64,000 nt of DNA, taken from assembly GCF_020172685.1 (NCBI RefSeq), contig NZ_CP083986.1, positions 1,941,926-2,005,925 of the forward strand, read 5' to 3'. Source of the stretch: [Mycobacterium] nativiensis. GTDB lineage: Bacteria; Actinomycetota; Actinomycetes; Mycobacteriales; Mycobacteriaceae. Numbering within the stretch: the stretch's first letter is position 1; each line of letters begins with the position of its first letter. Position numbers and translations under genes: made by a program. The notes below the pieces were generated by a model. That model saw only the letters and a list, made by a program, of their open reading frames with translations. It was not told where the DNA came from and did no database searches. Shown in pieces: positions 25,989 to 54,873 of this stretch.

Positions 25989-26176
25989 CCGCAGACTTGT
26001 ATTACCTCGGGTGAGGCTTGACAGTTGCTTCGGTTGATCCTTGACACTCCCTGGATGAGGGAGTTGAGCGAGCAGCAGTCACCCCGTGAGTGCACCGACG
26101 CGCCGAACGCAACTGGGCTAACGGCGCCCGGTCACTTGGCAAGTGCGACCGCTCGGCTCAAGGCCTCAGCGGTGCG

Positions 26177-27873: not shown

Positions 27874-27985
27874 CGGTCCCCCCAGGGATCGCAAGTTCAT
27901 AGATGATGTCGCCCAGCCACTCTGCTGGGCGCATTATTTACCGTGGCCGACATGTCCCCCCGGTGGATGCCGAACGTGCTGTGGC

Positions 27986-28028: not shown

Positions 28029-28136
28029 GTCTAGGGAAACGACATGATCGCCTAGCGAAGCTGACGGCGTCTGGCCTCGCGATGTGCGACACCGATCGGC
28101 ACCGCCGAACGCAGGTGAGGTATTGCCGCGGCGCGG

Positions 28137-28772
28137 TCACCTGCTGGTGGCGGTCGGCCTGGGGACGTCGGCCGGTGTGCGCCCGAGCGCGTACAGTGCC
28201 ATCCGCCGATTGGCCATGTCGTGTTCGCCCAGAAACACGCAGCCGCTGCTCTCACAGAACCTGCGCGCCCGCTTGTTTCGGTGGTCCGGGTCGAACATGA
28301 TCCGGCGGCAGCGCGGGTCGGCGTTGAGCACGCTGGCCACGAAGTACGGCAGCACGTATTGGGCGATGCCCCTGTTCATGATTCCCAGATCCGCGATCCC
28401 GGCGTGGATGCCCAAGTCGTAGGGATCGCAGTCATACCGATCGGCGATGGAATCCTTGGCCGCTCGGTATAGCTCGATGTAGGCACAGTCGTCTCCGTCG
28501 GCGCTGGCGATGAACGGCCGGGAGAAGCTGCCGTCGAGTTGCGCATGCAGGTACCGATGCCAGCGCTCCGTCGGCCAGGCGTACTCCCAAGCCTCGGCCA
28601 GGTGCGGGCGGCTCATCCAGCCGGCAACCATCGCGGCATCGGCATCGGGGTCGGCCAGCCGAAACGCGTACGGCGCCGGCACCTCGGGGTGTGACGGGGG
28701 CGCCCCGACTTCGCGGACGGCATCGGGCAGGTCGGTCCGTTCCCGCGGCAGAATCACCTCCGATCGGCTCAC
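28137..28772 (-). CDS. mbtK: MbtK-like siderophore N-acyltransferase (GNAT)
   Basis: A 211-residue GNAT-fold protein of the IucB/RhbD/MbtK type ([30 protein letters not shown] ... [20 protein letters not shown] ... [24 protein letters not shown]). Members acylate the hydroxylamine of N-hydroxylysine or N-hydroxyornithine to form a hydroxamate; MbtK adds a long fatty chain. The GTG start at 28772 overlaps the mbtH stop (GTGA), so it is the last gene of the same operon. Length agrees with Rv1347c. In M. tuberculosis mbtK is in a separate locus; here it is directly in the cluster. Acyl-chain specificity cannot be read. Confidence 0.8.
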
Positions 28773-28984
28773 CGCGACCCCATCGCGTCGCGCAGACTCT
28801 TCGGCCGCATGTCGGTCCAGTGTTCCTCGACGTACTGCAGGCAGTCCCCGCGGCTGGCTTCGCCGTAGATCTGACGCCACCCGGCCGGAATGTCGGCGAA
28901 CGCCGGCCACAGGCTGTACTGCTCCTCGTCGTTCACCAGGACCAGAAAGGTGGCGGTTTCGTCATCGAATGGATTGGTGCTCAT
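28769..28984 (-). CDS. mbtH: MbtH-like NRPS chaperone
   Basis: A 71-residue MbtH-like protein with the family signature ([28 protein letters not shown], ...[14 protein letters not shown]). MbtH proteins bind adenylation domains and make them soluble and active. ATG 28984 has GGAG at ideal spacing; ATG 28987 is one codon earlier. It overlaps the end of mbtG by 23 bases and the start of mbtK. Confidence 0.95.
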
Positions 28985-30272
28985 CATCTCTCCTCAACGC
29001 AGGCCGGGCGGGATCGCCGCCGGCCGTGTCAGTGGGGGACAGTTCGGCGCCCAGTACCCGATCGGACAGCAGGCCCAGGCAGCTCAGATTGGGAAAGCCC
29101 GGCCCCTGGTTCAGGCCGGCAAGGTTGGGCAGGAACAGTTTGGGCGCAACGCCTTCCACGGCCAGGTCGTAGCCGATCGCCTCCTGCAGGCGGTCACTGC
29201 CCAGCGGCCCGCCCAGCCCGAGTTCCAGGAGGTCCAGGGCGTCCTGGCTGAACAGCGAGGTGAACCACAGCGCGTCCAGGCCCGATCCGTCGATCACCAG
29301 ATCGAAACCATGGACAGTCTCGAAATCCTCGCTGCCGCGGTTGGTGCTCAAGGTGAGGCGGATCTGCCCGTCCCGGCCGACGGCATGCGCGACGCGGCCA
29401 CGCAGATGCCGGATCCGGTCATCGGCCATCAGCACGTCCTGCACACTCGACGAGAACACCCCCCGGTCGGTGCGGGCGATCGCGTCCCGACGTTCCTGCA
29501 GCGTCAGAGCGGTCCAGTGCGTCGGATCGGAGAACAGTGAATTCTCGAAGTAGCTTTCGCCGCGGGTGAACAGGGTCACCTGCGGTGAGATCACGGTGAT
29601 CGTCGAAACCGGGTGCCCGCGAAGCTCATTGAGCATGGCTGCAGCGGTCTCTCCGCCGCCGATCATGGCGACGCGCTCGGCGTTGATCCGGTCGTGCTGC
29701 GCCGCGCGATGCCAGAACTGGGCGATCGACAACACCCGCGGGTTACCGGGCAGCAGGGTCCGTTCGGCCTGGCCCGGCCCGGTGACCATCAACGCATCGG
29801 CGTGAATGGTGTTGTCGCGGGTGTGCAGGGCCCATCGCCGGCCGTCGACGGCGATCCGGTCCACCTCGCCGTGGGCCACCTCCATGTCGATGCGCTCGGC
29901 GACCCAGCACAGGTACTGGCCCCACTGACGGTGCGTGGGCGCCGGGCGGCCGCGGTCGATCCAGTCGGCAAACTGGCCGGTCGCAATCAGATACGCCTGC
30001 CAGCTGTAGCAGGTCATCCGCTCGTCGAGCTCGGCGTTGCGGCGCGGCACCAGCGCCGACCGATAGGGGAAGCCCACGTCCTTCTCCGGTCCGGTGCCCA
30101 ATCGGTGCGCGCCGTCGGTCCAACCGCCGATGGCATACCAGTTGGCGGCGACCCCGGTGCGTTCGACGGCAATGACATCGGGTGGGTTGATACCCATCTC
30201 ACGCACCACCGACGCCTTGGCCGCGACGGCCACCGCCTTGGCTCCCGCGCCGAGCACTGCGAGTGTGGTCAT
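28962..30272 (-). CDS. mbtG: L-lysine/L-ornithine N-hydroxylase MbtG-like
   Basis: A 436-residue flavin-dependent N-monooxygenase. The FAD site opens the protein ([20 protein letters not shown]), a second nucleotide site appears near residue 215 ([14 protein letters not shown]), and the C-terminal [13 protein letters not shown] region fits MbtG. Start 30272 overlaps the mbtF stop (ATGA). It makes the N-hydroxylated side-chain amine that becomes the iron-binding hydroxamate after acylation. Whether it takes Lys or Orn is not decided by reading; length (431 in M. tuberculosis) and context favour the MbtG type. Confidence 0.88.
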
Positions 30273-33200
30273 GGCGCCATCTCCTTCAGGGCTTCTTCCC
30301 ACAGTGCTTGCAGCGCCGAGAGGTCCGCCTCGGGCAGGACGTCGGGCAATGCCCGCCACTGTGTCAACAGGACATGCCGGCCGCCGGAGCTGAGCAGCGC
30401 GGCCATGATGGTCAGCTCATGGCGCACCGCGAGATCGGGCTGTGCGATCGGCGGTACCCCGGCGAGCAGCCCACGGTCGAGCTGCAACCCGGTACCGCTG
30501 TCGCCGATATCGGTGCGCCCCAGGTAATTCAGCAGCAGCTGCGGACCCGGGTAGCTGCGGAACCGTTGCGCGGTGTCGGCGCGCAGGCAACGCAGCAGCC
30601 CGTAGTCGATCGCGGTGCCGGGGATGGCGGCCACCTGCTCGCTGATCCGCACCGGGTCGGCGTCGGGTATCCGCAGCGGGTAGATGGCGCTGAGCAGTCC
30701 GACGGTGTCGGTGATGTCCAACGGCTCGTCGCCCGCATCGCGAACCATGGTGTCGGTGCGCCCGTGCGTTTCCAGCGCCAGCAGCGGCGGGGGAGTCGGC
30801 TGGCCGCGGCTGCGCCGCCAACCGATCACCATTCGTGCCGCCGCGGCCACCAGGAAATCGAACACCGGCAGACCCGACTCCAGCAGGGCGCGGGACACCT
30901 CGGCGTCGCTCGCGCTCGATCGGACCAGCAGAGCGCGGGCCCGGTCGCGGCCGGGCTCCACCCGCCGGGCCCCCAGGTCGGGGTCTTCACCGTCGAGCTG
31001 GGCAAGCCAGAACTGTTCGGTGTGAAGGATGTCGGTGCGCTGAACAAGTGCCTCGGCCCACCGTCGGTAGCTGGTGTGCTCGCGGATCGGCGGGGCCTCC
31101 TGACCGGTGGCAAGCAGGTGCAGGGCGGTGTCGAGTTCACCGACCACCACCCGCCACGACGCCGGGTCCATCGCCAGGACGTGCACGGTCAGTACCAGCA
31201 CACTGTGCCCGTCGGACGGCCGAAGCCAGCTCGCCGCGAGCATCCGACCGAGTTGGGGATCGAGGCCCGCCATGGCCTGTTCGGTGCGTGCGGTGACCGC
31301 TGCGCCCAGGTCGCCGGTCACCGCGACCTCGTCCAGAACGGCGGTGGCCGGGCTGGGGATCAGCGTCATGGCGGTCCGGTCGAGTCGGGTGCGCAGCACT
31401 TCGTGGCCGTCGATGATGGAGCCCAACGCGGTTCGCAGCTGCTCGCCGGTTACATGCTCCGGCAGGATGATTGCCTCGGTCTGCGCCAGCCGGCGGGGGT
31501 CGCCGTATTCATAGAGCCAGCGCGCGTTCGGCAGCAGCGGCAGTGGCTCGTTGCTGTGGTCGACAGGATGGACGGCACGGGTGGTGTCGGTGTCGATAGC
31601 TGCGGCCAGTTCGCGGACGTTGCCGCACTCGAGGATCAACCGGGCGCGTAACGGGATGCCGCGGCGACGGGCTGCCTGCACCACAGACAGCGCCATGATG
31701 CTGTCCAGTCCCAGCCGGACGAAGTCAGCGGTCACGTCGACCTGGGCGGCATCGGGCATGCCCACGAATTCCGCGAGTAACGCCGCCAGCGCGGACTCGG
31801 TGTCGGTTTCGGGTGCGGTCGCGGGGGTTTCGGCGGTGTTGATGTCGGCCAGCGCCACCTCGTCGAGCTTGCCGTTGGCGGTCAACGGAATGTCGTCGAC
31901 CACGACGATGTGCTGCGGCACCATGTAGCGCGGTAGCCGCTCGCCGAGCATGCACCGCAACTCGGCGGCGGCGGGAGCCGCGCCGTCGAGCGGCACAGCG
32001 TAGGCCGTCAGCCGAGCGCCACCTCGATGTTCGCGCACCACGACATCGGCGTGGCGCACCGCCGGATGCGCTTCGAGCGCGGCGCAGATCTCGCCCGGTT
32101 CTACCCGGTAGCCGCGGATCTTCACCTGGGCGTCGGCCCGGCCGAGGTATTGCAGCGCACCATCCCGCTGGCGGCGCACCACGTCACCGGTGCGGTACAT
32201 CCGCTCGCCGGCGGCGAACGGATCGGGGACGAATCGAATGGCCGTCTCTGCGGGCCGCCCCAGGTAGCCGCGAGCCAGCTGCGCGCCGGCGAGGTACAGC
32301 TCGCCCGCCGCTCCGTGGGGGACCGGGCGCAGCGCGGAATCCAGAACGTAACTGCGGGACTGCGCGGTGGGGCCGCCGATGGACGGCTCGTCGTGATCGC
32401 AGATCGCCGCGACCACGGCCTCAACCGTTGCCTCGGTGGGCCCGTAGCAGTTGTATGCGGTCATCCCACTGCGTGAGCACTCTCGGCGGATCGCATCCCA
32501 GGTCTGCGGGCCGATCGCTTCGCCGCCCAATGCGAGCACCGCCAACGGCACGCCGTCCAGCAAGCCGAACGCCTGCAGCTGAGCGAACATCGACGGGGTG
32601 GTGTCGATCATGTCGAGCTGGTGCTCGGCGATCGCGGCAACCAGGGCCTCGGCGTCGTGCTGGGTGGGTTCGTCGACGATGTGGAGGCTGTGCCCGTCGA
32701 GCAACGCGGCCAACGGCTGCCAGGAAGCGTCGAAAGCAAACGACCACGCGTGCGCAATGCGCAGCCGCCGGCCCAACCGGGCGGCCGCGGGACGCAGTAC
32801 CGAAGCGATGTGATCGTCGGCAAAAGCACTCAGCGCGGCATGAGTTCCGATGACCCCCTTGGGTTCTCCGGTGGTCCCGGAGGTGAAGATGACGTAGCCG
32901 GCCTGCTCGGGATCGGCGTCGACGGGCCGGAAATCCTGGACCGTGGGTCCGAGGGCAGACTCGACGGTCCCGTCGATGACATAGCCGGCACCCGTCTGCC
33001 GCATGATCGAGTCCACCCGTTCGGGGGGCATCCCGGGCTCCAGCGGAACACACATCCCGCCGGCCTTGAGTACCGCAAGCATCGCGACGACGTATCGGTG
33101 GCTGCGTGGAAGCATGATCGCGATGGGTGTTTCGGGTGCGATTCCGCCGTTGTAGCGCGTTCCCAGTTGCTGGGCCAGTTGGTCGGCGGCAGCGTCCAGC

Positions 33201-34696
33201 GCGCCGTAGGTCATGGTGCCGCCCGCCCAGCTCAGTGCGGTGGCTTCCGGCTGGGCCGCTGCGATCGCGGCAAACCGGGTGTGAAAGGCCACCGACCGGT
33301 CTGCGCGGATCCGAGCGGCGACGGTCCGCGGTCGGGCCTCATCGTCGAAGAGCACGCTGACATCGCGCATCCGGCTTTCCCACATCGACAACAGCCGTTC
33401 GGCGGTGACCAGCACCCGGCGGCCGAGCTTCTCGGCGCTGGTCGAGCCCAGCGCCTTGTCGAGCACCTCGATCAGCAGGACCAGATCGTCATCGGCCATG
33501 TGTGCGGCCAGTGCCACCGGGAAGTGCGAGACGCTCTCCAGTTCCGCGGGCCGGAATGTCACACCGCCGGCGGTCAATTCGCGGTGCTCGGCCAGTCCGG
33601 CGGTCGGAAAATTCTCGTAGACCAGCAGCGTGTCGAACATCTCGCCGACCCCACCGAGTGCGCGCAGTTGTGCGTGGCTGAGGTAGCCGTGGTCGCGCAG
33701 CAGGGCCGCGGTGCGTTGCAGCGCCAGGCACTGCGTCCCGACGTCGGCGCCCGGGTCGAGCCGTACCCGCAGCGGAATGGTGTTGATGAACAGGCCGATC
33801 ATGGATTCGACGCCGGCGAGTTCGGGGGGCCGACCGGAGACCGTGACCCCGAATACCACGTCGTCGCGGTCGGTGTGCCGCGACAGCACCAGTGCCCAAG
33901 CCATCTGCATCACGGTGTTGACGGTGATGCCGCGGGAGCGGGCGCCTTCACTCAGCCGCGCGGTGAGCTGTCGGCCGGCGTGCAACTCGGTGCGCCGGGG
34001 CAGCCCGGTGCGCGACGCGTCGATCGCCATCGCCGCCGACAGCAGAGTGGCGCCCGGCAAGCCGGCGAGGTGACCGCGCCACACGTCTTCGCTGGCCGCG
34101 TTATCGCGGCTGCTCAACCAGCCGATGTAATCCCGGTACGGCCGCGGTTGCCGCGGCAGCGACGCGGGATCACCCCCGGCGCCGTACAAGGCGATCATCT
34201 CCGCGGCGAACACCGGCAGCGACCAACCGTCGATCACGATGTGATGTGCCGTGATCACCAGATGCCAGTGATCTCCCGGCAGTTCGATGAGCAGGAAACG
34301 GATCGCCGGGGTCCGTTCGAAGTCGAACGGCCGCGATCGCTCCGCGGCGGCCAGCCGTCCGATGTCCTCGGGAAGGGCGCGAACCTGCCGCCAGGGCAGG
34401 TCCACCCGTGATGGGACGATCTGCACCGGACGAGGAATGTCGCGGCTGACGAAGCTGGCCCGCAGATTCGGGTGGCGCGCCAACATCGCCGCGGCGCACC
34501 GCTTGAGCAGCTCGACGTCCAGCGGCCCGCTGATGTCCGCGGCGATCCCGATCAGATAGGGGTCCTCGACCCTGCCGTCGTCGGATACCTCGGTGAGCCC
34601 GGACAACACCGTGTGCGAATACAGCCCCTCTTGAAGTGGGCTGAGCGCCATCACATCCTCGACGGCCGGTGGCGGGCCGGCTTTGGCGGCGGTCAT
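30269..34696 (-). CDS. mbtF: MbtF-like NRPS (C-A-T-C), terminal module
   Basis: A 1475-residue NRPS. Domains: C with intact HHIVIDG near 155; A with core [10 protein letters not shown] near 607 and A10 lysine PLTANGKL; T with LGLDSIM near 997; terminal C from about 1030. Reading the A-domain pocket against GrsA gives Asp235-Ala236-Gln239-Asp278-Ala299-Gly301-Cys322-Val330-Glu331, with two acidic residues that suit a basic side chain such as Lys or Orn. The last C domain reads HVLAMDP in place of HHxxxDG, so the catalytic His is missing; in MbtF this domain is linked to release by cyclisation. There is no thioesterase. Start at 34696 overlaps the previous stop (ATGA). Confidence 0.88.
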
Positions 34697-37600
34697 GCCG
34701 GGCGGCCGTCCGCCGGACTCCACGAGCGCGTCACCGCCGCCAAATCCTCGGCGGACAGCCCCGAAGTGCTCATCGGTGCGTGCTGGGTGTCGGACGCAGC
34801 CGAGTTGGCCTGTGCCGCGTCCACCGCTGCCGCCAACTGCTGCACGGTGGGGCTCTCGAACACCATGCGCGGGTGAACGGGCAGACCGGCCGCCCGCGCA
34901 CGTGCGGCGACCTGGACCGACAGGATGCTGTCCCCGCCGAGCGCGAAGAAGTCGTCGAAGCGTCCCACCGCCGCGATGGGCAGCAGATCGACGAACACCC
35001 GCGCCAGCGCACGCTCGGTGCCGGTGCGCGGGGGCTCGCTCTCACCGGTGGTGCTGACCGCGGGTCGCGGCAGCGCAGGCCGATTCAGCTTGCCCGACTC
35101 CGTTTTCGGCATCTCGTCGAGCACGGTGACCGAGGCGGGCACCATGTATCCGGGCAGCACCCGGGCGACGTCGGCGCGCACCGCGGCGGCGAACGCGGAC
35201 CGCTCGGCCTCGTCGGCCAGCGGTCGCCGCGGCACCACGTAACCGGCCAACGTGGTGCTGCCCCCAACCTGCCAGGCGCGGGCTGCGGCCGTGGCCACAC
35301 CATCGGCGGACTTGAGCGCCTCGTCGACCTCGCCGAGTTCGACTCGGAAACCGCGGATCTTCACCTGGTGATCGGTGCGGCCGACGAACTCCAGTCGGCC
35401 GTCCTGGGTCCAGCGGGCCCGGTCGCCGCTGCGGTACAGCCGCGCGCCGGGGTCATCGGTGAACGGGTTGGCGACGAAGCGCGACGCGGTCAGCCCCGGG
35501 CGTCTCCAGTAGCCCCGCACCAGTTGGCCGCCGGCGTAATACAGTTCGCCGATCACGCCGGGCGGCACCGGGCTGAGGCCGTCGTCGAGCAGATACACCT
35601 GGGCATCGGTCATCGGCGTGCCCAGCAGCGGCACGGGGGGTGTCAATGGGCCGCGGATCAGCGCGCCCGATGTCTCGGTGGCGCCGAAGTTGTTCAGCAG
35701 CTCGGGGCCGTCGGCGTCGCCGTAGCCGGCGAGCAGCTGTTCCTGCAGCGACGCCGGCAATGGTTCGGCGCCGCACACCAGCCGGGTCAGCGACCGGAAG
35801 GCATCCGGCCAGGAACCGATGATCGCCGAGACCAGGGTGGGCACCGCGGTCACCTGCGCGATCGAGTGCCGCCGCACCAGCGACGCCAACGCCTCCGGGT
35901 CGCGGTGTTCGGCGTCGTCGGCCAGAATCGTGGTGGCGCCGGCGGCAAGGCCGCCCAGTGTCTCCATGCAGCCCTCGAGGAAGGTCCACGAGGCCTGCGC
36001 CAGCCGAATGTCGTTGCCGGCGACGGGATAGTTCGCGAGCTGCCAATTGAGCCGGGTTGTCATCGCCCGGTGAGTGCCCAGCACTCCCTTGGGCTTGCCG
36101 GTCGAGCCGGACGTGAACACCAGGTACATCGGGTCGTCGGGGTCAGCGGCGGGAAGCGGGGACTCCGCGCCGTTTCCGTCGGTGGGTGGTGCGTCGAACA
36201 CCGCCGGGTCATCCAGTGAGATCAGGGCCATGCCCGGGCGTTCAGGCATGGTCGGGAGAGCTTCGGCGGTCACCACGACGACCCGGGGGTCGGCGTCGTC
36301 GAGCATGAACTGTTTGCGGGCGAAGGGATAGCCGGGGTCGAGGGGAAACAGACCGGCGCCGGCCTTCATGATGGCTACCATCGCAACGACCATGTCGATG
36401 TCGCGCCGGGTCGACAAGCCCACCAGCGACCCGGGCCGCACCCCGCGTGAGGCGAGCAGCCGCGCGAAGTTGTCGGAACGGCGGTGCAGCGCAGGGTAAT
36501 CGATCTGGTCATCACCGCAGCGCAGCGCGATCCGGTCCGAACCCCAGGCACGGCTCGGTTCGAGCAGTTCGGCGATGGTCAGCGGACGCTCGACCGGAGG
36601 TTTCGGCCCGCGGCTCCACTCGGTGAGGATTCGGTTCCGTTCGGGCGGGTTGATCAACGAGACGTCGCGCAACGTCTGATCCACGTCCCGGGTGAAGGCA
36701 TCCACGACGTGGGTGAGCCAGCCGACCAGCCGCTCGATGGTTGCCCTGCGGTACAGCTCCGTGCGGTAGAGCACATTGCCCCGGTATCCGGTGTCGCCGG
36801 CGAAGAAGTTCACGCTCAGATCGGCATGCGCGATGTCGAATGTCGGTTCCACCACGCTGAATACGGTGTCGCCTCCCGAGTCGGAGTCGATCACCTGGGC
36901 GGCCGGCAGGTGGTCGCGCACGTGCACGACCACCTGAAACAGCGGATTACGGGCGAGGGTGCGGATCGGCGCGGCCACATCCACGACCCGGTCGAACGGC
37001 AGGTCCTGGTGGGCGTAGGCGGCCAGCGCCGTGTCTCGGGTGCGGGCCAGCACCTCGCGCAGCGTCGGGTTGCCGTGCAGGTTGTTGCGCAGCACCAGAA
37101 TGTTGATGAAGAAGCCGATCAGTTGGTCGAGCTCCGGCTCGTCGCGCGCCGCGATCGGGGTGCCCACCGGAATGTCCACGCCGCCGCCGGCTTTGTGCAA
37201 CACCACGGCGACGGCGGCCTGCAGCAGCATGAATTCGGTGATGCCGAGGTCACGGCTGACGGCCGCAAGCTTCCCGCGGGTCGATGCGTCGATCTCGAAT
37301 TCGACCGAGTCACCTGCCCCGCTGGGCACCGGCGGCCGCGGATAGTCGGGCCGCAAGCCGGTGTCCTCGGGCAGACCTGCCAGCTGCCGCTTCCAGTAGT
37401 CGCGCTGCGTCGTGGCGATACCGGGCTCGTCTCCGCCCGACTCGGCCAGCAGGGCGGCCTGCCACGCTGCGTAGTCGGCGTACTGCACCGGCAACGGCGC
37501 CCAGGATGGCGGCTGCCCGGCCCGACGGGCCCGGTAGGCGGTCAGCAGGTCGGTGAAGAGCACCCCGCCGGACCAGTGGTCGATGGCGATGTGGTGCACC

Positions 37601-40600
37601 ACCAACGACAGCGTGTGCTCATCGGGACGATCCGTGGTGCTGAGCACCGCGGCCCGGATCGGCCACTCACGGTCCAGGGCGAAGCAGTACCGACGTTCGG
37701 AGTCCAACTGTTCCTGCAGCCAGAGCTCACCGGTCCCGGTGGCCCGCCGCACCGGCACCGCACCCACGGGCTCGATCACCTGATAGGGGACACCGTCGAT
37801 CGAGGTGTAGGTGGTACGCAGGATCTCGTGTCGCGCCACCACGTCGTTGAGAGCTGCGGTCAGCGCATCGACATCGCACGGCCCGCGCAGGCGCGCTCCG
37901 AACGGAATGTTGTTGACTTCGGAGGGGCCTTCGATCTGATAGGCGAACCAGGTGCGCAACTGCGAAGCCGACAGCGGTAGCGGACCGTCGTGGGACGTGC
38001 TGCACAGTCGGGGACGCGTGCTGGTGACCGCACCCGACGCTGATCCTTCGATCCACTGGGCAAGGCGTGCCACCGTGGCGGACTCGAACACATCGCGGAT
38101 ACCGATCTCGACACCGAATTCGGAGCGGATCGACGCGACCAATCGGGTGGCCACCAGAGAGTGCCCGCCGAGGTCGAAGAACGAGTCGTCGACACCGACG
38201 CGATCGTGTCCGAGCAGCGTGGCGAACAGATCCGCGAGGCGGTGTTCGGTTGCCGTCGTCGGCTCCCGATACTGCGTTGCAGACCCGACTTCCGGGTGCG
38301 GCAACGCATCCCGGTCGATCTTGCCGTGCGCGGTCATCGGGATCTCGTCGAGCACGACGTAGCCCACCGGAATCATGTGAACCGGCAGTGCGGCAGCCAC
38401 TCTCGCTCGGATCCGCTCAACGTCGACGGTGCCGGTATCGCTGTCGGCGGGAGTCACGTAGCCGACCAGGCTCTTTCCGATCTGCGGTAGGTCGAGGGCC
38501 ACGACAACGGCCTGCCCGACGCTGGGGTCCACCGAGATCGCGGCAGCCACTTCGCCGAGTTCGATCCGAACGCCGCGGATCTTCACCTGTTCGTCGACGC
38601 GCCCGACGAATTCGATATCCCCGTCGGCGTTGCGCCGAGCCAGATCACCCGAACGGTACAGGCGTCCACCGGGTGTGAAGGGGTCGGCGACGAACCGCTC
38701 GGCGGTCAGGCCCGGCCGGCGGTGGTAGCCGCGAGCCATCTGGGTCCCGCCGATGTAGATCTCGCCGACCACGCCTGCCGGAACCGGCTGCAGGAACGCG
38801 TCGAGCAGATGCATCTGGGTGTTGATCTTGGGGCGGCCGATAGGCACGGTCCGAGCGCCCTGGGTGCCTTCGACCTGATAGCTGGTGGCGTTGATGACGG
38901 TCTCGGTGGGTCCGTAGAAGTTGTAGAGCAACGCATCGAAGGTGGCGTGGAACTTGTCGGCGATCTCACCGGGCAATGCTTCCCCGCCGACGGGTACCCG
39001 GCGCAGCGTGCGCCACTGGTTGACCCCGGGCAGCGACAGGAACAATCCCAGCAGCGACGGCACGAAGTGCATGGAGGTGATCCCTTCGCGTCGCAGCAGA
39101 TCGGTCAGGTAGCCGACGTCGCGCAGGCCGTCCGGTCGCGGAATCACCAGGCGTCCACCGCAGATCAGCAGCCCGAAGATCTCGGCGATGGACACGTCGA
39201 ACCCGGGGGAGGCCACCTGCAGCAACCGGTCCGTCTCGTCGACCTGGTAGGCGTCGCCGAACCAGCTGAAGTACTCGGCGATCGGCGCGTGCGGTACCGG
39301 GACCCCCTTGGGCAGCCCGGTCGAACCCGATGTGTACATCAGGTAGGCGGTGTTGTCCGGACGCAGCGGCCGGATCAGCTCGTCGTCGGTCAGATCAGCG
39401 CCGGAGTACTGCTGCAGACCGGTGACGGCCTGACGCAGCACGAGGGCGGCGGCCGCATCGTCGACGATGAACGCCAGCCGGTCTTCGGGATAGGTCGGGT
39501 CGATCGGCAGGTAGACCGCTCCGGCTTTGAGGATGCCCAGGGCGGTGATCACCAGTTCCGGTGACTTGTCGAGCAGCACCGCAACCCGGTCCTCGGTACC
39601 GAGGCCCTGCTCGATCAGCCAGCGGGCCAACCGGTTCGCCTCCTCGTTGACCTGCCGGTAGCTGTATTGGCGGCCTTCGTAGACCACGGCCACGGCGTCG
39701 GGCGCCAGGGCTGCGCGGGCGGTGACCAATGCCGGCAGGGTGGTGCTGGGACTGCTGAACTCGGGGCCGGCCGAAGCGGCGCGCAACCATTCCGAGTCGG
39801 CAGCGCTCATCAGCGTCAGCCGCCCGATCTGGGTGTCCGGTTCGGCCAACGCGCTGTCCAACAGGACGGTGTAGTGGTCCAGCAGCTGCTGCACCAACGG
39901 CTGGTCGAGAACCTCGACGAGGTACTCGGCCTCGACCAGGGGTCCGGCCCCGGCCGCGGTGGGCCACTCGACCATGAACGTCAGGGGGAGCTGGGCGAAG
40001 TGGCCGTGCAGGTCACTGCGCTCGCACTCCACACCCGGTGGGCAGAACCCGTGGCCGTCGGGTTGCCGGAAGCCGAAGCCCACCCGGGCCGTCGGCTCGA
40101 TACCGCGGCAAGCGCCGGGGTCGGATTCAAACGCCAGCCAATCAAGGTCGACGCCCGGATGGGAGAATGCTTCGGCGGCGGAAGCACGGATGGCGCTGTG
40201 CAACTCACGGAAACTCTGCCCGGCTCGCGGTCGGGCCCGCAGCATCGCCAGGTTGCCGAAATTGCCGACCGCGTCCTCGGTTCCTGCGCGGCGACCAGAT
40301 ATCGGCGCGGCAATCAGGAAGTCAGTGGCATGCGTGTAGCGGTGCACCAGGGCGGCGAACGCGGCCAACAACACAGTATGGGGGCTGGTCTCATTCTCAT
40401 AGGCAAACGCGGTGGCGCCCTGCACGGTCGGTGCCGGCAATCGCCGGGTGATGCGACGTGCGTGCCAAGAGTGCGGCACCACTGAACCGTTGGCACCCGG
40501 AAGATCCAGGGGCTCAGGTAGATCGGACACCAGCGTCCGCCAGTGATCCAGGTCAGAATCGACGGGGATGGAGCCGTCGATGATCGTCGGCGGCGGCTCG

Positions 40601-43600
40601 AGACTCGCTGCGGCATCGGGATCGCCATAGGCGCGGGTGAGGTCCCGGAAGAATACGGGCCAGGAGCCGTCATCCCAGGCGATGGGGTGGGCGATGACGA
40701 GCAACGCGAGTTTATCGGTGCCGAGGTGTGCCGCGGTGATCCGTAGCGGCGAATCGGCGGTCAGGTCGAAGGGCCGGCCGAATTCCCGCTGCGCAAGCAC
40801 TTCGAGTCGCAGCCGCTGCGGCTGCTCCTCGAGGTCGGACAGGTCGTATTCGGCCCAGGCTGGCCGCAGTTCGGAGTGGACGACAAGGTGTTGCTTTCCG
40901 TCGTCATCGCGGCGGTAGGTCGACCGCAGTGGCGGGTGCCAGGTGGCGACCGTGTCGACGGCGCGGTGGAGTCGGGCGCAGTCGACGGCGCCAGTGACCT
41001 GATAGGAGGCACATACATTGAGTTGCGCGCTGTCCGGGTCGACTGACTGCAGAGACCAGATCCGGCGCTGGGTTGCGGACATCCCCGGTGTTGCGCCGAC
41101 TGCCGGAGCCGATGGAGGAGCCGATGGAGCAGCCGGAACGCCTTGGATGGCTTCGGTATCGGCCACGTGGGATCTCCGCTCTGGCTCGGCGCCCTCGGAC
41201 GGCCGGTCGGACCGCACCATGTCGATCACCTCGGCGCCGGTCATTCCGCCGAGCAGCTGCGACAGCGGGATCGTGCGACCGATCACCCGGCTCAGCCGCT
41301 TGCGCAGATCCACCGCAAGCAGGGAATCCAGACCGAGATCGAGCAGTGGTGCGGTCAAGTCGACCGAAGCTGCGACGCTGACTCCCAGCAGCTCAGCGAT
41401 CTCGGCACGCACCACCTGATCGACGGATCGGCCCACGGTCCCGTCGCCGGTCGGTTGCGGTTGCGATGTTGTCGGCGCCGCAGCGAATGGTGAAGGAAGG
41501 CCTTGGCTCTCGAAGAAGAGACCCAAGCGGTCGAAATCGGCAGCGATGATCACCGGATCACTGTCGTGCTGGCAAAAACTCGCCATGACTGCGGCATCCG
41601 GGTCCATCGCGACCAGTCCGGACCGCTCGATACGGACTATCTCGTCGTGGTCGGCCAACGTGGTGTCGCGCCACAGTCCCCACCGCATCGATATGGCGTT
41701 GAGTCCGTCGGCCCGAAGGCGAGTGGCGAGTGCATCGAGCATTCGGTTCGAAGCCGCATAACCGCCGTGTCCGTAACCGCCCCACAGGCCCGATACCGAC
41801 GAGCACAGCAGGAGTCGCGCGTCTTCCCGCAGAGGCCACTTCGTCGCCAGCAGCTCCAACCCCGCGACCTTCGCACCGAACATGTCTTCCCAGTCGGCGC
41901 GGGTCAGCCGGTCGTGCGGGCCGAAATGGGCGGTACCGGCCGCGTGGATCAGCAGTGACGCACCGTCGCCGGCATATTCGGCCGCGGTGCGCCGCACCGA
42001 CTCCGGGTCGGTGATGTCGCACGCTGGTGCCCGTAACTCGACATACCGCCCGTCGCGCAGCCGGTCCAAGTCGTGCTGGCGAAGGCCGCCGCGGCTCAAC
42101 AGGGTCACCCGTCTGGCACCGCATTCGATGCAGCGCAGCGCATAGGCCTGGCCGATGGCACCGCTGCCGCCGGTGATAAGCACGTTGTCCAACGTCGGTC
42201 GGTCGAGTGCCTGGTGGGGCACAGGATCGTTGGTTTCGCTCAATCGGCGGACGTAGGGTCGCAAGGTCCCGTTGGCGTCTTCACGAAGTGCCACGTTGTC
42301 GACGTCGCCGGTCAAGACGTCGACGCAGACGCGCCCGTGATCCGTGGCGATGTCCCGCCGAGGCAGATCGAGGTGACCGAATGACTTGTCCGGGAACTCG
42401 AAGCCGGTACTGCGATGCAGTGCGGTCAGGGCGGATTGGGCGGGCAGGACCGGGGGGTCGTCGGCGGCTACCGTCTCGCCCTGGGCTGTGACCAGCCATA
42501 CGGTACGACAGTGCGGACCGATGAGGTGACGGTAATCCGGTGGGCCCGCGTCGATCAGGGCGCGACTGGCGGCGCTCACGCCGGGCTGATCGAAGGCGGG
42601 CGCCACGATCACGGTTATGTCCGCCTCATCGGTGGTTGTCAGCTCGCAATCAGATTGCGCGACAATGGCGTCCGCCAGGAGCCGTGCCAACGGTCCGGTG
42701 CTCGCGTCGGGTGCGATCACAGCGATACGGTGGCCGGCCTGCTTCGTCGGGTGCGCGCTGTCAGCAGGTTCCCAGTGCTCATACGCAACGGTCACCGAAG
42801 TGCCCGGCACGGCCGGCAGCGAATCTCGTGCCGCCCAGAAATGGACGGTGCCCATCGGGGCGTTGGGGAATCCCCACAGCGGCGGGCGATCGCGGACGCC
42901 CGCGAACTGGATCCATCGGTAACCGGGATCTGCCAGCGCTGCGGCGGCGATGTTGGCGGAAATGCGGTCGGTACCGAGCTCGTGGCGGGTACCCGAGTCG
43001 ACCAAGACGGTCGAATCGTCATCGACCAGCTCAGCCAGTGCGGACAGCAGGGAGGGGTGCGCTGAAAGCTCGGCAAACGCATTGGCGCCTCGTTCGATCG
43101 CCACAGCGACGGCCCGGTCGAATCTGACCGGGGTACGCAGATTTCGCCACCAGTAGTCGGCAAAATCGGTTCCGGGACCCACCACTGTCCCCAGCGCCGA
43201 ACTGACGAATTCGACGGGGGACTCATGAAACTCAGATGCCGGAAGCAATTGTTCGAACATCGGTCGCAACGGGTCCAGCGCGCTGGTGTGCCCCGGATAC
43301 TCGACGGTGATGGGGCGGGCGAAAACGCCGCGCTCTTTGGCGCGCTGCACAACGACATCCACGGCGCCCCGGTCGCCTGAGATCACCGTCGACGATGGAG
43401 CATTGACGGCCGAGATCTCCAACCAACCAGGGGTTTCGGCGATGAGGCGTTGCGCCTCATCCACTCCGGCGCCCAACACGGCCATCCCGTAGCGTCCCGG
43501 CAATTGATCGATGACAGTGGCCCGAGCTCCGACTACGGCGACGGCGGCCGGTAGCGTCACCGCCCCGGCGACATGTGCCGCTGCCGCCTCACCGAGGCTG

Positions 43601-44160
43601 TGCCCCACGGTGATGCCGGGAAAAACACCGTACGACCGCCAGATACGCGCCAAACAGACGGAGTGGGTGAACTGTGCACCCTGGATCTCGACCTGCGACC
43701 AGTCCCGCTCGACCGGGGCATTCACCAGGTAGGACAGGGGTGATGGCAGGCCGGCGGCAATGAACACCTCCGCGCAGCAGTGCGCCTCCTCCCGATACAG
43801 CGCAAGTTGGTGGTAGGCGGCCGACCCCATCGATGGCCATTGATTGCCCTGGCCGGGAAACACGAATGCCGTCTGCACCGCAGCGCTCGCCGACGACCGG
43901 GTGACCAGCGGGTGATCCTCGTCGCTCGCCAGTGCCCTAAGCCCAGCGGAGAGTTCGGCGATATCGGCGGCCCGTATCAGTGCCCGGTGGCGGCGGACTC
44001 GTCGCCGGTGCAGCAGCGTCGCGGCGACGTCGGTGAGTTCGTCCGCGCTCGGTTCACGGTCCAGGTAGTCCAGGATCGCTGCGGCATCCTGAGCAACCAA
44101 GTGCTGCTCATGCGCGCTCAGCAGCACAGGGATACGACCGTCCGGCAAGCGGGCGGTCAT
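34693..44160 (-). CDS. mbtD/mbtE: MbtD-MbtE fusion: PKS (AT-KR-ACP) joined to two NRPS modules (C-A-T-C-A-T)
   Basis: A 3155-residue protein; M. tuberculosis has separate MbtD (about 1000) and MbtE (about 1680). Domains by approximate residue: AT (active Ser in GHSLGEA near 187), KR (GGSGAIG near 665, YAASN near 800), ACP (LGLDSLL near 944), C1 near 1160 reading HPIAWDD, A1 ([10 protein letters not shown] near 1612), T1 (LGGHS near 2000), C2 near 2192 reading HHIAIDH, A2 ([10 protein letters not shown] near 2685), T2 (LGGDS near 3075). C1 has Pro where the catalytic His belongs. A1 has the usual Asp235; A2 has Leu there. It starts at 44160, sharing one base with the mbtC stop. A natural fusion, not an assembly artefact, is supported by uninterrupted domain order and a Pro/Ala-rich linker near 1010-1035. 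Confidence 0.88.
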
Positions 44161-45482
44161 CACACCGCCTCCGGCATCGCGACGATGGCGTGTGCGTTGG
44201 TGCCGCTCACGCCGAAAGCCGACACCGCCGCCAGTCGCCTTCCATCGACGGCGGGCCACGGTGTGAGTGTTTGAGCAAGCCGCAATCCTTGGTTTTCCCA
44301 GTCGACCTCGTGGCTGGCCTCTTCGACGTGCAGGGTCGGCGGAATGGCGCCATGTTCTGCGGAGACCAGAACCTTGGCCAGACCTAACGCGCCGGCGGCG
44401 GCTTGGGCATGCCCCAGGTTCGACTTGACCGAGCCCAGCAGCGCACCGCGGCCGGGTGGGGCCGCGCCATAGGTCTGCGACAGCGACCGCAACTCGGTGC
44501 GGTCACCCAGGCGAGTGGCGGTGCCATGGCCCTCGATCATCGCGATGTCTTCGGGGCGCACTCCAGCCCGGCACATCACCCTCTCGAACAGGTGTTTCTG
44601 CGCCTCCGCGCTGGGAGCACTGAGCCCAGCGCTATGACCGTCCTGATTGACTGCGATGGCACGGATCTCGGCCAGGATCCGATGACCATCACGCACCGCC
44701 CCGGATCCGCGCTGCAGCACGAATATTCCAGCGCCCTCAGCCCACACCGTTCCGCTGGCCTGGGCGCTGTAGGGACGGCAGTGGCCGTCGTCGGACAACG
44801 CCTGCTGTTTGGAGAACTCCACGAAATAACCCGGTGAGCCCATCACGCAGACACCCCCGGCCAGGGCCATGTCGCAGTCCCCGGCTCGCAGCGACTGGAC
44901 GGCGATGTGCAGCGCGGCCAGCGCGGATGTGCACGAGGCGTCGACGGTCAGGGCCGGGCCGGCCAGTCCGAGCGTGTAGGCGATCCGACCGGACACCACT
45001 CCCATCGCGGTTCCGCTCAGCAGATGCCCGGTGTGGCTCGAGAATTCGGCCATATCGGGCCCGTACCCGGTTGGGGACGCGCCGATGTAGCAGCCCACGT
45101 CGTGTCCCTGCAGATCATCGGGGTTGATCCCGCTGTTCTCCAGGGCTCGCCAGGCTACCCGCAAGGCGACTCGTTGCTGCGGGTCCATCGCGGTGGCTTC
45201 ACGCGGCGAGATGGCGAAGAATGCCGGGTCGAATGTGCCGGCTCCGGTCAGGAAGCCACCCGAGTTGTGGATTCGTTTGAAGCCGTCGCGGCAGGAACCG
45301 GCCAACAGGTCGCGGATCGCCCAGCCCCGGTCGGCGGGCAGCGGGGACAACGCTTCCCGCCGATGGGACAGCAGCTCCCAATATCCCTCGGGGGTGTCGA
45401 TGTCGCCGGGCGCCTCGACTGCCATTCCGACTATTGCGATCGGATCATTGTCAGTGGCCTTGGCCACTGGCTGACTGGACAT
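44160..45482 (-). CDS. mbtC: Stand-alone ketosynthase MbtC-like
   Basis: A 440-residue beta-ketoacyl synthase without other domains, as MbtC is (about 444). Active-site Cys lies in VDASCTSALAA, the two His in EGHGTATRLGD and NLGHAQAAAG. With the AT-KR-ACP part of the next protein it would make a beta-hydroxyacyl unit (beta-hydroxybutyrate in mycobactin). It has only a poor ribosome site, but a 19-codon ORF with a near-perfect one ends two bases upstream, so translational coupling is likely. In M. tuberculosis mbtA and mbtB precede mbtC; here nothing of that kind does. Confidence 0.9.
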   Translation of the reverse strand: MSSQPVAKATDNDPIAIVGMAVEAPGDIDTPEGYWELLSHRREALSPLPADRGWAIRDLLAGSCRDGFKRIHNSGGFLTGAGTFDPAFFAISPREATAMDPQQRVALRVAWRALENSGINPDDLQGHDVGCYIGASPTGYGPDMAEFSSHTGHLLSGTAMGVVSGRIAYTLGLAGPALTVDASCTSALAALHIAVQSLRAGDCDMALAGGVCVMGSPGYFVEFSKQQALSDDGHCRPYSAQASGTVWAEGAGIFVLQRGSGAVRDGHRILAEIRAIAVNQDGHSAGLSAPSAEAQKHLFERVMCRAGVRPEDIAMIEGHGTATRLGDRTELRSLSQTYGAAPPGRGALLGSVKSNLGHAQAAAGALGLAKVLVSAEHGAIPPTLHVEEASHEVDWENQGLRLAQTLTPWPAVDGRRLAAVSAFGVSGTNAHAIVAMPEAV

Positions 45483-45484
45483 GA

Positions 45485-45544
45485 TTACTCGTTCGGCGAC
45501 GATGCCAGTGACGAGTGGTCGGCAAACCCGTTGAAAGTCATCAT
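45485..45544 (-). CDS. 19-codon leader ORF upstream of mbtC
   Basis: Reads MMTFNGFADHSSLASSPNE and stops at 45485-45487, two bases before the mbtC ATG. GGGGGAGGA lies five bases before its first ATG, a far better ribosome site than mbtC has. The ORF is probably translated, either to couple translation into mbtC, as a regulatory leader, or as a peptide in its own right. It contains no run of regulatory codons obvious enough to call an attenuator. Confidence 0.55.
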   Translation of the reverse strand: MMTFNGFADHSSLASSPNE

Positions 45545-45624
45545 GATTTCCTCCCCCTGACCGATGAAATTGACGGTGAGTCCGGTCTGATCGGGTTTCG
45601 CTCGCGATGGGGACCGTCAGACCG

Positions 45625-45648
45625 ACAACCGGTCACCGGTCCGGTTGT
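45625..45648. promoter_or_regulatory. Inverted repeat ACAACCGG-N8-CCGGTTGT
   Basis: Perfect 8-base arms at 45625-45632 and 45641-45648 with an 8-base spacer that is itself near-palindromic (TCACCGGT). A third copy of ACAACCGG is at 45725-45732. Situated 80-105 bases upstream of the leader ORF of the mbtC operon, it is a likely operator. Confidence 0.55.
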
Positions 45649-45787
45649 GAAATTGACGGTCACGTCTGCGAGCAATCGCGCGATGCGGTGAGCGGTAGCA
45701 GTACCCGTGCAGGCAGGGCGACAAACAACCGGCATCTACCTGCGAAGTTGTCGTTTTCCGGGGTGTCGGGCCGCTCTTGCCTGCGGC

Positions 45788-45818
45788 TGTTGTGCAGGAA
45801 TAGTCCTCCCGCACAACA
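45788..45818. promoter_or_regulatory. Inverted repeat TGTTGTGC-N15-GCACAACA
   Basis: Perfect 8-base arms at 45788-45795 and 45811-45818. It shares the GTTGT/ACAAC half-site with 45625-45648, suggesting that one regulator may bind several places between the two divergent transcription units. Confidence 0.45.
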
Positions 45819-46085
45819 ACTTTCGGGAGCGTCAAATCCGCTGGTTGTGGCACCTTTAGGTGGGAAGTTCGGCGGTCTGGCGCGGGCGCTTTCGCAACTC
45901 GACGCCTATCGCCCACGTATCAGTTGAACAACAGATTAAATGTTAATAACGATTCGCTACGGGTGGTCGCGGTCCGCTCGTCGCCCTCGCCGTCGAAGCA
46001 GGGCGTCGTACGGAGACAGTGGGAAGGTTCCCAGTTTGCGTTGGGACGTGCGCGGGTAGCTGATTCGGATGACCGCGTGGCCGTG

Positions 46086-47561
46086 ATGGCCGTAAAGCGA
46101 TCTCTCAAGACATCCACCACACAGTCCGAGGTTGAGCGGAGGCCGACCGTGCGACTCCAGGCATATTCGGGGCGGCCCACACCGGTCGTGGACGACAACG
46201 AGCTGAATCCCGACAACCGGCTGTCCCACATGGACCAAGCAATGTTCCTGACCCAACGCGCCACCGGACGCAATGCGATCGTCCAGTGCGTCTGGGTCTA
46301 CCAGCATCCCGTGGATCTGGCAGCGCTGAGGCGTTTCCATCGGTCTCTGGGCTTGGGGCTGTTGGGGCGGCGCATCGAACGTTCGCCGCTACCGTTTGCC
46401 CGCGCTCGGTGGGTGAGTGATCGGGGTCCGGTCGATATCGACATTGCCCGGCGCGCCCGACCGCGAGCCGAACTCAGCGACTGGCTCGATGACCGCGGGC
46501 GCCTCCCGGTGGACGCTGAGCGGGGCCCCGGTTGGCATCTGGGAGTCCTGCCGTTGATCGACGGCTCGACGGCAATGACTCTGGTGGCTTCACATTGTCT
46601 GGTCGATGGTCTCGGGATCATCGGTGCCGTCGCCGACGCCGCCGCGGACACCACCTGCGCGCTCGGCTATCCACCGCCGAGGTCCCGGCCGCGACTGCGT
46701 GCGCTGGTTCAGGACGCGCGTCAGACCGTGCAGGGTATGCCCGAGATTCGGCGGGTGATCGCCGAGGCGGTGCGTACCGCGCGCATTCAACGCGCGCAGA
46801 CATCATCGATATCGGCGCCACCACTGCGACCCATTCGCAGCCGTGGGGCGGGTCGCCACGAGTCTGTGATCGTCCCCGCCGTCGCCATCCACGTCGACCT
46901 CGATGAGTGGGACAGGTGCGCGGAGGATCGGGGCGGCACCAGTCATCACCTGGCCGCCGGCTTCGCCGCGAAACTCGCCGAGCGGCTGGGACGACGGCGC
47001 ACCGTGGATGGCGCCGTCACCTTGCAGATCCCGCTCAGCGGCCGGATCGAGGGCGACACCCGGGCGAACACCTTGTCGTTTGTCAGCGTGAGCATCGATC
47101 CAACGAGGGTGACATCGGATTTGTCGGACGCCCGGACGGTGATCAGGCGAACCTTCGAGAAATTGCGACAAGCGCCGGAACAGGTATCGCCGCTGCTTCC
47201 GTTGGCGCCGCTGGCACCGTTCGTGCCGAAGCCCGTGCTGAAACACCTCACCGAGGCGGCGTTCTGCTATACGGATCTGCCGGTGGCGCTGTCCAGCATG
47301 GGGGAGGTTCCCCCGATAGCCGGCCGCCCGGACGGATCCGAGGCGGAATACGTATTCGGGCGGGGGATGATTCAACGTGTCATGAGGCGGGATCTTGAAC
47401 GCGCCCAAGGCGAACTTGCGCTGTTCCTCTTGCGAGGCTGCGGCCAGATGTGCATTACGGTCACCGCCTATCGGCCTGGCGGAAGGAACACCAAATCAGA
47501 ATTGCGTGACTTAGTGGCAGGAACTCTGGCTGAGTTCGGTCTGCGAGGCGTGATCGAGTAG
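46086..47561 (+). CDS. HxxxDG acyltransferase (WS/DGAT- or PapA-like)
   Basis: About 491 residues from ATG 46086; the frame is open further upstream to 45924 and the true start is unclear. The catalytic HxxxDG motif is visible as SHCLVDGLGI in the first third, and NTLSFVSVSID plus a C-terminal CITVTAYRPG segment fit the CoA-dependent acyltransferase / condensation-like fold. Such enzymes ester- or amide-link acyl groups; WS/DGAT members make wax esters or triacylglycerol, Pap proteins acylate polyketide lipids. Its position, divergent from mbtC across the shared regulatory region and followed by a P450, suggests tailoring of the siderophore or of a linked lipid. Substrate unknown. Confidence 0.65.
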   Translation: MAVKRSLKTSTTQSEVERRPTVRLQAYSGRPTPVVDDNELNPDNRLSHMDQAMFLTQRATGRNAIVQCVWVYQHPVDLAALRRFHRSLGLGLLGRRIERSPLPFARARWVSDRGPVDIDIARRARPRAELSDWLDDRGRLPVDAERGPGWHLGVLPLIDGSTAMTLVASHCLVDGLGIIGAVADAAADTTCALGYPPPRSRPRLRALVQDARQTVQGMPEIRRVIAEAVRTARIQRAQTSSISAPPLRPIRSRGAGRHESVIVPAVAIHVDLDEWDRCAEDRGGTSHHLAAGFAAKLAERLGRRRTVDGAVTLQIPLSGRIEGDTRANTLSFVSVSIDPTRVTSDLSDARTVIRRTFEKLRQAPEQVSPLLPLAPLAPFVPKPVLKHLTEAAFCYTDLPVALSSMGEVPPIAGRPDGSEAEYVFGRGMIQRVMRRDLERAQGELALFLLRGCGQMCITVTAYRPGGRNTKSELRDLVAGTLAEFGLRGVIE

Positions 47562-47606
47562 CAGGCCGAATGCGTTGACTCGGCAGACAAGCCGGAAAAG
47601 AGATAC

Positions 47607-51136: not shown

Positions 51137-51155
51137 CGGGTCACCTCGGGTCCGA

Positions 51156-51947: not shown

Positions 51948-52022
51948 GGGGAAGGTATGCCCGCGATGGGGCGCCGCAAAACGGTGGTATCCGATCACTG
52001 ACGGACTTCGACACCGTAAACC

Positions 52023-53909: not shown

Positions 53910-53941
53910 ACCCCGACGAACGCGAAAGGAACCAGAAGATC

Positions 53942-54862: not shown

Positions 54863-54873
54863 AGGAGCAGGAC

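Follow-up and report, generated by a model that had tools for sequence, protein, structure and literature searches.

A second mycobactin-type gene cluster without aryl-cap genes in [Mycobacterium] nativiensis

Mycobactin is the textbook siderophore of mycobacteria, and its aryl cap provides two of the iron ligands. Among the described systems, the mbt-1 locus (mbtA-J), in its M. fragae form with a two-module MbtE, is closest to the cluster analyzed here, which lies on a stretch of 64,000 nucleotides of the [Mycobacterium] nativiensis genome (contig NZ_CP083986.1, positions 1,941,926 to 2,005,925), hereafter called the window. Both loci share the mbtC-D-E-F-G order and the same domains, and the window proteins from MbtC to MbtG are 58–81% identical to those of M. 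fragae. In contrast to mbt-1, however, the window cluster lacks mbtA, mbtB, mbtT, and the iron box, and the catalytic His of its first condensation domain (C1) is replaced. Furthermore, mbtD and mbtE are fused, and mbtK as well as genes for an acyltransferase and a cytochrome P450 are attached. We consider it roughly an even bet (probability about 0.5) that the cluster encodes a second mycobactin-type nonribosomal peptide synthetase/polyketide synthase (NRPS/PKS) line, related to the M. fragae mbt locus, that has lost the aryl-cap branch and would make a trimmed mycobactin core independently of IdeR. The cluster is real and conserved, and it represents a variant within a known type of pathway. 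The first-pass annotation of the window rightly called it unusual and plausibly non-aryl, but its grounds were mistaken: what is surprising is not an additional NRPS module but a joint loss, comprising the cap genes, the iron box, and, in eight of 18 second clusters including that of the window, the cap-accepting active site. The count of 18 second-cluster MbtEs includes the window and M. intermedium and excludes M. fragae.

Additional mbt genes are known from other mycobacteria (articles cited by PMC number are drawn on in excerpt). Plasmid pMAH135 of M. avium hominissuis carries an mbtB-F cluster and thereby resembles the window in having an extra, accessory set beside the chromosomal one (PMC4324632). 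The pMAH135 set keeps an mbtB homologue and is plasmid-borne, whereas the window cluster lacks mbtB and lies in a contig of 5.28 Mb. Of the plasmid sequences, the pMAH135 NRPS is one of those that match the window MbtE best, but the identity is only 38%; a recent plasmid origin was rejected because no plasmid matched closely. M. abscessus has mbt genes at more than one locus and an unusual mycobactin (PMC9505556). There, mbtA is present and iron boxes are reported at mbtT, mbtE, mbtA, mbtE', and mbtI, whereas no box was found at mbtC2 of the window. In nontuberculous mycobacteria from Hawai'i, duplicated mbtC, mbtD, mbtE, and mbtF genes were found generally outside the mbt locus (PMC10667711); the relevant section of that survey counts genes and does not deal with domain loss, missing cap genes, or regulation. 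The literature searched, with subscription papers mostly outside the search, contains no account of a second locus lacking the cap genes, of the loss in C1, or of the second adenylation domain (A2) acting on a hydroxy acid, and this lends weak support to novelty.

Genes, genome context, and distribution of the cap-less cluster

The mbt genes and two relevant domains are listed below (C, condensation; A, adenylation; T, thiolation; AT, acyltransferase; KR, ketoreductase; ACP, acyl carrier protein; ORF, open reading frame; aa, amino acids).

44160..45482, minus strand: mbtC2, stand-alone ketosynthase (PF00109/PF02801), Cys/His/His motifs intact, 68% identical to the main-locus MbtC
34693..44259, minus strand: mbtD2-mbtE2, fused ORF of 3188 aa, AT-KR-ACP followed by C1-A1-T1-C2-A2-T2 (domain search)
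39760..41090 (bounds approximate), minus strand: C1 of mbtE2, AHPIAWDD for AHHIAWDD, N-terminal helix absent
35050..36612, minus strand: A2 of mbtE2, Leu235 (TFLEGCM), FGATE for YGPTE in motif A5, Lys517 kept
30269..34723, minus strand: mbtF2, C-A-T-C (domain search)
28962..30359, minus strand: mbtG2, lysine N6-hydroxylase-like (PF13434)
28769..28987, minus strand: mbtH2 (PF03621, 99 bits)
28137..28775, minus strand: mbtK2, lysine N-acyltransferase-like (PF13523), start codon uncertain, ORF extends to 28910

The order mbtC-(D/E)-F-G-H-K, as read in the first-pass annotation, was located throughout on the minus strand, from 45482 down to ~28137. All cluster ORFs are full length. The mbtD2-mbtE2 ORF scores 1330 bits with the NCBIfam MbtD model NF037940 (cut-off 1150), and the motifs of T1, C2, A2, T2, the ketosynthase (KS), AT, ACP, and the first C and T domains of MbtF are kept. 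The code of MbtF2 begins with the same nine residues (DAWDAGCVE) as that of the main MbtF, and, judged by their Pfam matches, both predicted lysine hydroxamate enzymes, MbtG2 and MbtK2, are present. Searching the window by tblastn with the M. fragae proteins yielded only paralogous NRPS domains for MbtA and MbtB, in line with the earlier statement that both genes are missing, and no MbtT; a search for mbtI was not made. A siderophore reductase had been placed close by, but Pfam revealed none among the flanking ORFs scanned, which were part of the window ORFs. The mbtD-mbtE fusion was seen only in the window, the best MbtE match in the other 14 records being a separate ORF of 1973–2185 aa.

The genome, a single contig of 5.28 Mb, was searched for condensation, AMP-binding, lysine-oxygenase, MbtK, and MbtH domains. 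Approximately 120 kb from the window cluster we found a complete main locus consisting of mbtA (minus strand), mbtB (plus strand), mbtT, mbtC, mbtD, mbtE, mbtF, mbtG, and mbtH, whose MbtA and MbtB are 67% and 66% identical to their M. fragae counterparts. An MbtK homologue lies ~10 kb from this locus, beside two ORFs that, from position and size only, we read as irtA/irtB. The main MbtE (2162 aa) also shows the C-A-T-C-A-T architecture, and its A2 region is 94% identical to that of [Mycobacterium] crassicus, 92% to that of [M.] vasticus, and 88% to that of Mycolicibacter terrae. By these identities, the genome very probably belongs to a Mycolicibacter species of the M. terrae complex. The identity between window and main copies is 46–68% (MbtC 68%, MbtD 46%, MbtE 59%, MbtF 48%). 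The window cluster is the second mbt locus of this genome. The idea that mbtA and mbtB might lie elsewhere has thus been borne out, with a further mbtC-H set beside them, so that the genome does not show the combination named as a refutation there, mbtA and mbtB without another mbtC-F. The elongated mycobactin that might have followed has become unlikely (see below). Outside the main locus, an extra piece of a main-type MbtE (L004, G000:C1:1888043-1889353) was observed, which is 81% identical to residues 1377–1814 and lies in a 973-aa frame.

A search for related loci returned the unit in 14 named Mycobacterium records, namely gordonae, szulgai, angelicum, gastri, persicum, attenuatum, ostraviense, innocens, intermedium, alsense, fragae, Candidatus (Ca.) methanotrophicum, MFM001, and Marseille-P9652. 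The recurrence of the unit in the same order argues against chance. Four distant Rhodobacterales records also matched (L022-L025, 31–33%), in which no FLEG motif of A2 was found. Four more carriers of the cap-less locus are G235, G006, G216, and G241, of which G006 shares its C1 and KR motifs with the M. gordonae record and may be the same species. In M. fragae, the unit is the main locus, with mbtA and mbtB-T-C-D-E-F-G together, and among the matches listed there is no other MbtE of the mbt kind. Twelve other carriers have, among the matches listed, a further MbtE of ordinary kinds; for M. intermedium, M. gordonae, and M. szulgai, the listed match covers residues 1–1049 of frames of ~1690–1700 aa. 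MbtB was detected at E ≤ 1e-100 in 13 of the 14 carrier genomes, including M. fragae, where its gene is adjacent; Ca. M. methanotrophicum gave no MbtB match at this threshold and has kept the cluster. Sequence upstream of the cluster is available for 17 second clusters, since the M. intermedium contig (L018) starts inside mbtD, and mbtT is kept in 16 of them, the exception being the window. In three relatives, an mbt match is split in two (mbtD of M. szulgai, L014, and of G241, L106; mbtE of M. alsense, L021), either the gene or the assembly being broken.

The cap-accepting domain and the iron box

By its sequence, C1 is orthologous to the domain that takes the salicyl-oxazolinyl chain from MbtB. 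In the window MbtE2, the predicted catalytic His of this domain, meant to accept the aryl-oxazoline, is changed to Pro. All 14 MbtEs encoded beside mbtB carry AHHIAWDD in C1. Among the second clusters, the His is replaced in eight of 18: by Pro in the window and G241, by Arg in Marseille-P9652 and G235, by Ser in Ca. M. methanotrophicum, and by Gln in M. gordonae, G006, and M. alsense. The difference (8/18 vs. 0/14) corresponds to a Fisher p of 0.0044, with related genomes counted separately. The losses fall into at least three groups, namely the window with Ca. M. methanotrophicum and Marseille-P9652 (according to the tree), the M. gordonae group, and G235, with M. alsense perhaps as a fourth; G235 was put with the M. 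kansasii group by its N-terminus. G235, G006, G216, and G241 are not in the tree. The motif count left out G138 and G022, whose MbtE is cut by the locus end, and the MbtE of G133 has no C1. All second clusters have intact C2, A2, and T motifs wherever the sequence extends; the M. alsense ORF is broken before the end of A2, leaving the columns for A2 Lys517 and T2 empty. The last C domain of MbtF, which reads xHVLAMD in second clusters, in M. fragae, and in some mbtB-linked loci, does not discriminate between them.

A second difference concerns an N-terminal helix of MbtE, which we infer to dock to MbtB. Its motif RLEL(L/M/F)R was read by eye in all 14 mbtB-linked MbtEs and in none of the 18 second-cluster proteins; a stricter scripted pattern gave 9/14 and 0/18, and two second-cluster proteins keep RLELLQR. 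When M. fragae or the window was compared with the others, identities were 50–74% for C1, 80–91% for A1, and 74–84% for C2. The ratio of nonsynonymous to synonymous substitution rates (dN/dS, NG86) for 21 second-type pairs, M. fragae included, was 0.17–0.38 for C1, 0.07–0.24 for A1, and 0.11–0.25 for C2, and the highest C1 values (0.33–0.38) came from the window and M. szulgai/M. angelicum pairs. The main-locus C1 gave 0.12–0.23, except for one very close pair among the 18, which had 0.38.

These data bear on two other ways in which the line might start. It might borrow MbtA and MbtB from the main locus and thus yield an ordinary or acyl-variant aryl-capped mycobactin, without elongation. Such borrowing would be in keeping with the main mbtA and mbtB in the same genome, the MbtB of 13 of 14 carrier genomes, the C1 His left intact in ten of 18 second clusters, and the direct linkage of the related M. 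fragae line to mbtA and mbtB. We nevertheless consider it unlikely, since in the window the catalytic His of C1 is replaced by Pro and the N-terminal helix typical of mbtB-linked MbtEs is missing, and since a genome with no MbtB match has kept the cluster. The other possibility follows the collinear reading of the first-pass annotation: a beta-hydroxyacyl starter made by MbtC/MbtD would be joined by C1 to residue 1, followed by residue 2 and a cyclic lysine, to give a lipopeptide siderophore. The mbtD-mbtE fusion, which would be the physical trace of such a route, indeed sets the ACP beside C1 in the window, and the KS, AT, and ACP motifs are intact. However, this transfer would rely on the C1 domain after the ACP. 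In eight second clusters, the window among them, this domain is without its catalytic His; it belongs to MbtEs that adjoin mbtB in M. fragae, and it is followed by an A2 resembling a hydroxy-acid domain. A beta-hydroxyacyl start is thus highly improbable. Of the non-aryl, lipidated siderophore initially proposed, the non-aryl part stays plausible for a mycobactin-like line without aryl-cap genes, whereas the collinear start is unsupported.

Spacers, including those of G138 and G022, were scored for a 19-base IdeR-box consensus, with 60 shuffles per spacer and a threshold of 14/19 that was chosen after the scores had been seen. The spacers between mbtA and mbtB contain a site of 14–16/19 in 15 of 15 loci, a score reached by at most 3% of the shuffles. 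Of the second-cluster mbtC spacers, one of 17 (M. intermedium left out) has a site of at least 14/19 (M. angelicum, 15/19), and the other 16 score 10–13, like shuffles, although these spacers are longer, which favors chance sites. The window mbtC2 spacer reaches 10/19 at best, below its shuffle mean of 11.6. Four additional mbtT spacers scored 11–12/19, and a scan of the whole window at 15/19 found no IdeR-type site. As there is no IdeR-type box at mbtC2, iron regulation of the window cluster by IdeR would not be expected.

The A2 domain of two-module MbtE

The C-A-T-C-A-T architecture, which the initial description had regarded as a peculiarity, is present but not unusual. With the window A2 as the query and three candidates scored per genome, 116 of 396 genomes of the genus matched at E ≤ 1e-150, mostly in open frames of ~2150–2400 aa. 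Two-module MbtEs were found in M. avium hominissuis (2190 aa), M. xenopi, M. heckeshornense, M. simiae, M. kansasii, and M. terrae (2179 aa), in addition to the main locus of this genome. The published split sizes of the broken MbtE of M. avium silvaticum and paratuberculosis (1148 + 1059 and 1759 + 431 aa; PMC12337445) agree with the two-module length. The 31-bp mbtE deletion common to M. paratuberculosis reference strains (5053–5084 of the M. avium hominissuis gene; PMC4810606) lies, by position, in A2. Two-module MbtE is a common mycobacterial form.

A longer peptide due to the extra module is unlikely, because the same architecture is common and occurs in M. avium hominissuis. M. terrae makes mycobactin R of ordinary size. 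For M. avium hominissuis, salicylate-labelled species with a mobility similar to those of M. tuberculosis have been described, the excerpt giving no structure (PMC4810606). The A2 residue positions and code were assigned by eye, the second-cluster code being L-E-M-T-V-G-N-G-A. According to a review, an aliphatic residue at position 235 goes with A domains for alpha-hydroxy or alpha-keto acids, and StsA, a keto-acid domain, has another residue in place of a Pro conserved in amino-acid A domains (PMC11253843); from the LgrA alignment, this Pro would be that of YGPTE. A Phe-activating domain with Val at 235 exists as well (PMC11253843), so the hydroxy/keto-acid marks on A2 are not proof. Given these marks and the position of A2 where mycobactin has a hydroxy acid, A2 probably loads a hydroxy acid that is already part of mycobactin, and the chain would not be lengthened. 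The presumed extra residue 2 is then most likely mycobactin's own hydroxy acid.

Two loci (L112 and L113, genomes G004 and G185) show a compact arrangement of mbtA and mbtB followed by a two-module mbtE and mbtF, with no mbtT, mbtC, or mbtD between. In a 148-genome MbtD sample, with five candidates scored per genome, eight of 43 A2-matching genomes had no full MbtD match (the A2 frame of G076 has stop codons). In such genomes, an ordinary MbtD could not supply the hydroxy acid, in keeping with A2 loading it directly. L112 and L113, however, have another A2 code (L-E-I-T-V-C-A-G-A, read by eye) and may use another substrate as well, and in 35 of the 43 genomes A2 and MbtD occur together.

The MbtE of six other genomes gives a C-A-T-C match ~1700 aa long. 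Eroded A-domain motifs between the second C and the last T were observed in ordinary ~1700-aa MbtEs (L033-L039, L056, and L057), most clearly in L037, L056, and L057. A further, more distant MbtE group (46% identity) has no A-domain remnant. In the C-A-T-C tree, the second-cluster type and the remnant group are sisters, with the Mycolicibacter main type branching outside this pair. This topology suggests a loss of A2 from the ordinary MbtE as the simpler history.

Probable gain and loss of the unit and its proposed product

The unit extends beyond the mbt genes; the features concerned are the following.

28119..51730: 23.6-kb unit, absent between the same flanks in G361 (flank comparison)
45924..47561, plus strand: WS/DGAT-like acyltransferase (TIGR02946, E 3e-7, below cut-off), start uncertain
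47607..49010, plus strand: cytochrome P450 (PF00067), in all 15 second clusters whose locus extends that far
49691..51247, minus strand: second cytochrome P450 (PF00067), elsewhere seen only in L009 and L013
51156..52271, minus strand: methyltransferase, phthiotriol dimycocerosate methyltransferase family (NF045823, 425 bits, cut-off 300), true start inside the ORF

The acyltransferase, whose HxxxDG motif is invariant across 11 aligned sequences, is present in 16 of the 17 second clusters with upstream sequence; its gene adjoins the mbt genes in 15 of the 16 other than the window, the exception being Ca. M. methanotrophicum. Among the loci read, MFM001 and Ca. M. methanotrophicum are the only others in which the pair of second P450 and methyltransferase (49691-52271) was seen.

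Five Mycolicibacter-type relatives (G361, G305, G022, G069, and G322) are without a cluster at this site. The flanks nearly touch in G361 and G305, ~3.5–4.4 kb of other sequence lies between them in G022 and G069, and the right-hand match of G322 does not start before 58616. G361 has window positions 28119 and 51730 directly joined; the junction falls within the methyltransferase gene and leaves ~90 codons of its 5' part. Both window ends of the unit carry the common letters GGTGAGGT (by eye). On the sequence evidence, this junction is a deletion scar, so at least the methyltransferase end of the unit must have been present in the ancestry of G361. The simplest reading would be that the unit reached this lineage horizontally and was later lost in G361, as only the present genome (G000) has two A2 matches in the 396-genome search and its second MbtE groups in the tree with Ca. 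M. methanotrophicum and not with Mycolicibacter. Genes for SDR, FMO, and abhydrolase proteins at 52036-56358 were rejected as remains of an mbt flank, because four relatives carry this stretch at the site without the cluster. On the other side, two neighboring small proteins with weak PE-PPE matches are encoded at 26177-26938 and 27142-27900, between tRNA-Met (25915-25990) and the cluster end. A dispersed, partly tandem repeat with steps of ~57 bases lies at 21321-21434 and has many copies in the seven related genomes searched.

The window copy might also be a decaying relic that is heading for loss and makes no product. It has lost the C1 catalytic residue and mbtT and has no box; one relative has lost the whole unit, leaving the scar, and the split mbtD and mbtE matches in M. 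szulgai, G241, and M. alsense would fit such decay. This seems rather unlikely, however, given that the window ORFs are full length, that the other tested catalytic motifs are intact, that the dN/dS values against Ca. M. methanotrophicum are 0.13 for A1, 0.25 for C2, and 0.16 for A2, and that the cluster is kept in 17 other genomes.

Ca. M. methanotrophicum has, in addition, a shortened line (L086:8115-15890). It encodes a 2591-aa C-A-T-C-A-T-C fusion in which C1-A1 of MbtE are joined to a T domain plus MbtF. Adjoining it are mbtH and an acyltransferase homologue, and no mbtC or mbtD match was found within the 36 kb read. This fusion shows ongoing remodelling of these lines, in which the lysine part and the acyltransferase remain together.

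For a second line that has lost the aryl-cap branch, we propose the following route. Synthesis would start on T1 with N6-acyl-N6-hydroxylysine. C2 would esterify the T1-bound hydroxylysine to a hydroxy acid supplied through A2 loading, MbtC-MbtD synthesis, or both. A second hydroxylysine would then be added and cyclized by MbtF. The predicted product is a mycobactin core without hydroxyphenyl-oxazoline, a bis-hydroxamate whose alpha-amine is free or differently acylated. It may be capped by the acyltransferase and oxidized by the P450, and it would be made independently of IdeR.

Several observations weigh against this proposal. The C1 His is kept in the majority of second clusters (10/18), and C1 remains constrained, if less tightly, the second-type and main-locus dN/dS ranges overlapping and staying far from 1. 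The C1 motif of the 2591-aa fusion is intact in a genome without an MbtB match; an intact C1 is hence no sure sign of an aryl cap, and C1 may outlast the loss of the cap. Initiation with a free amino-acyl group downstream of an inactive C domain is our own proposal, the acyltransferase as a new cap enzyme is a guess, with a poor structure model of this protein (mean pLDDT 51.7), and the iron-box threshold was set with the scores in view.

More tentatively, and at odds well short of even, the cap-less clusters may represent a widespread, overlooked family in slow-growing mycobacteria and one Mycolicibacter lineage. Such a family would use a remodelled mbt line outside IdeR control, with a P450 and an acyltransferase recruited, to make metallophores or envelope lipopeptides built on a de-arylated mycobactin core, for a role other than classical iron uptake; alongside, the A2 of MbtE would provide a direct hydroxy-acid loading route as an alternative to the MbtC/MbtD polyketide route. 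If true, the recurrent loss of the cap genes, the iron box, and the cap-accepting site would show a siderophore pathway turned to another use. The comparison also points to a way of filling a gap in the scheme of mycobactin biosynthesis, namely entry of the hydroxy acid via the A2 of MbtE, since in many species an A2 with hydroxy/keto-acid marks sits at the entry point, some A2 genomes have no full MbtD match, and one group of ordinary MbtEs retains an eroded remnant of the domain.

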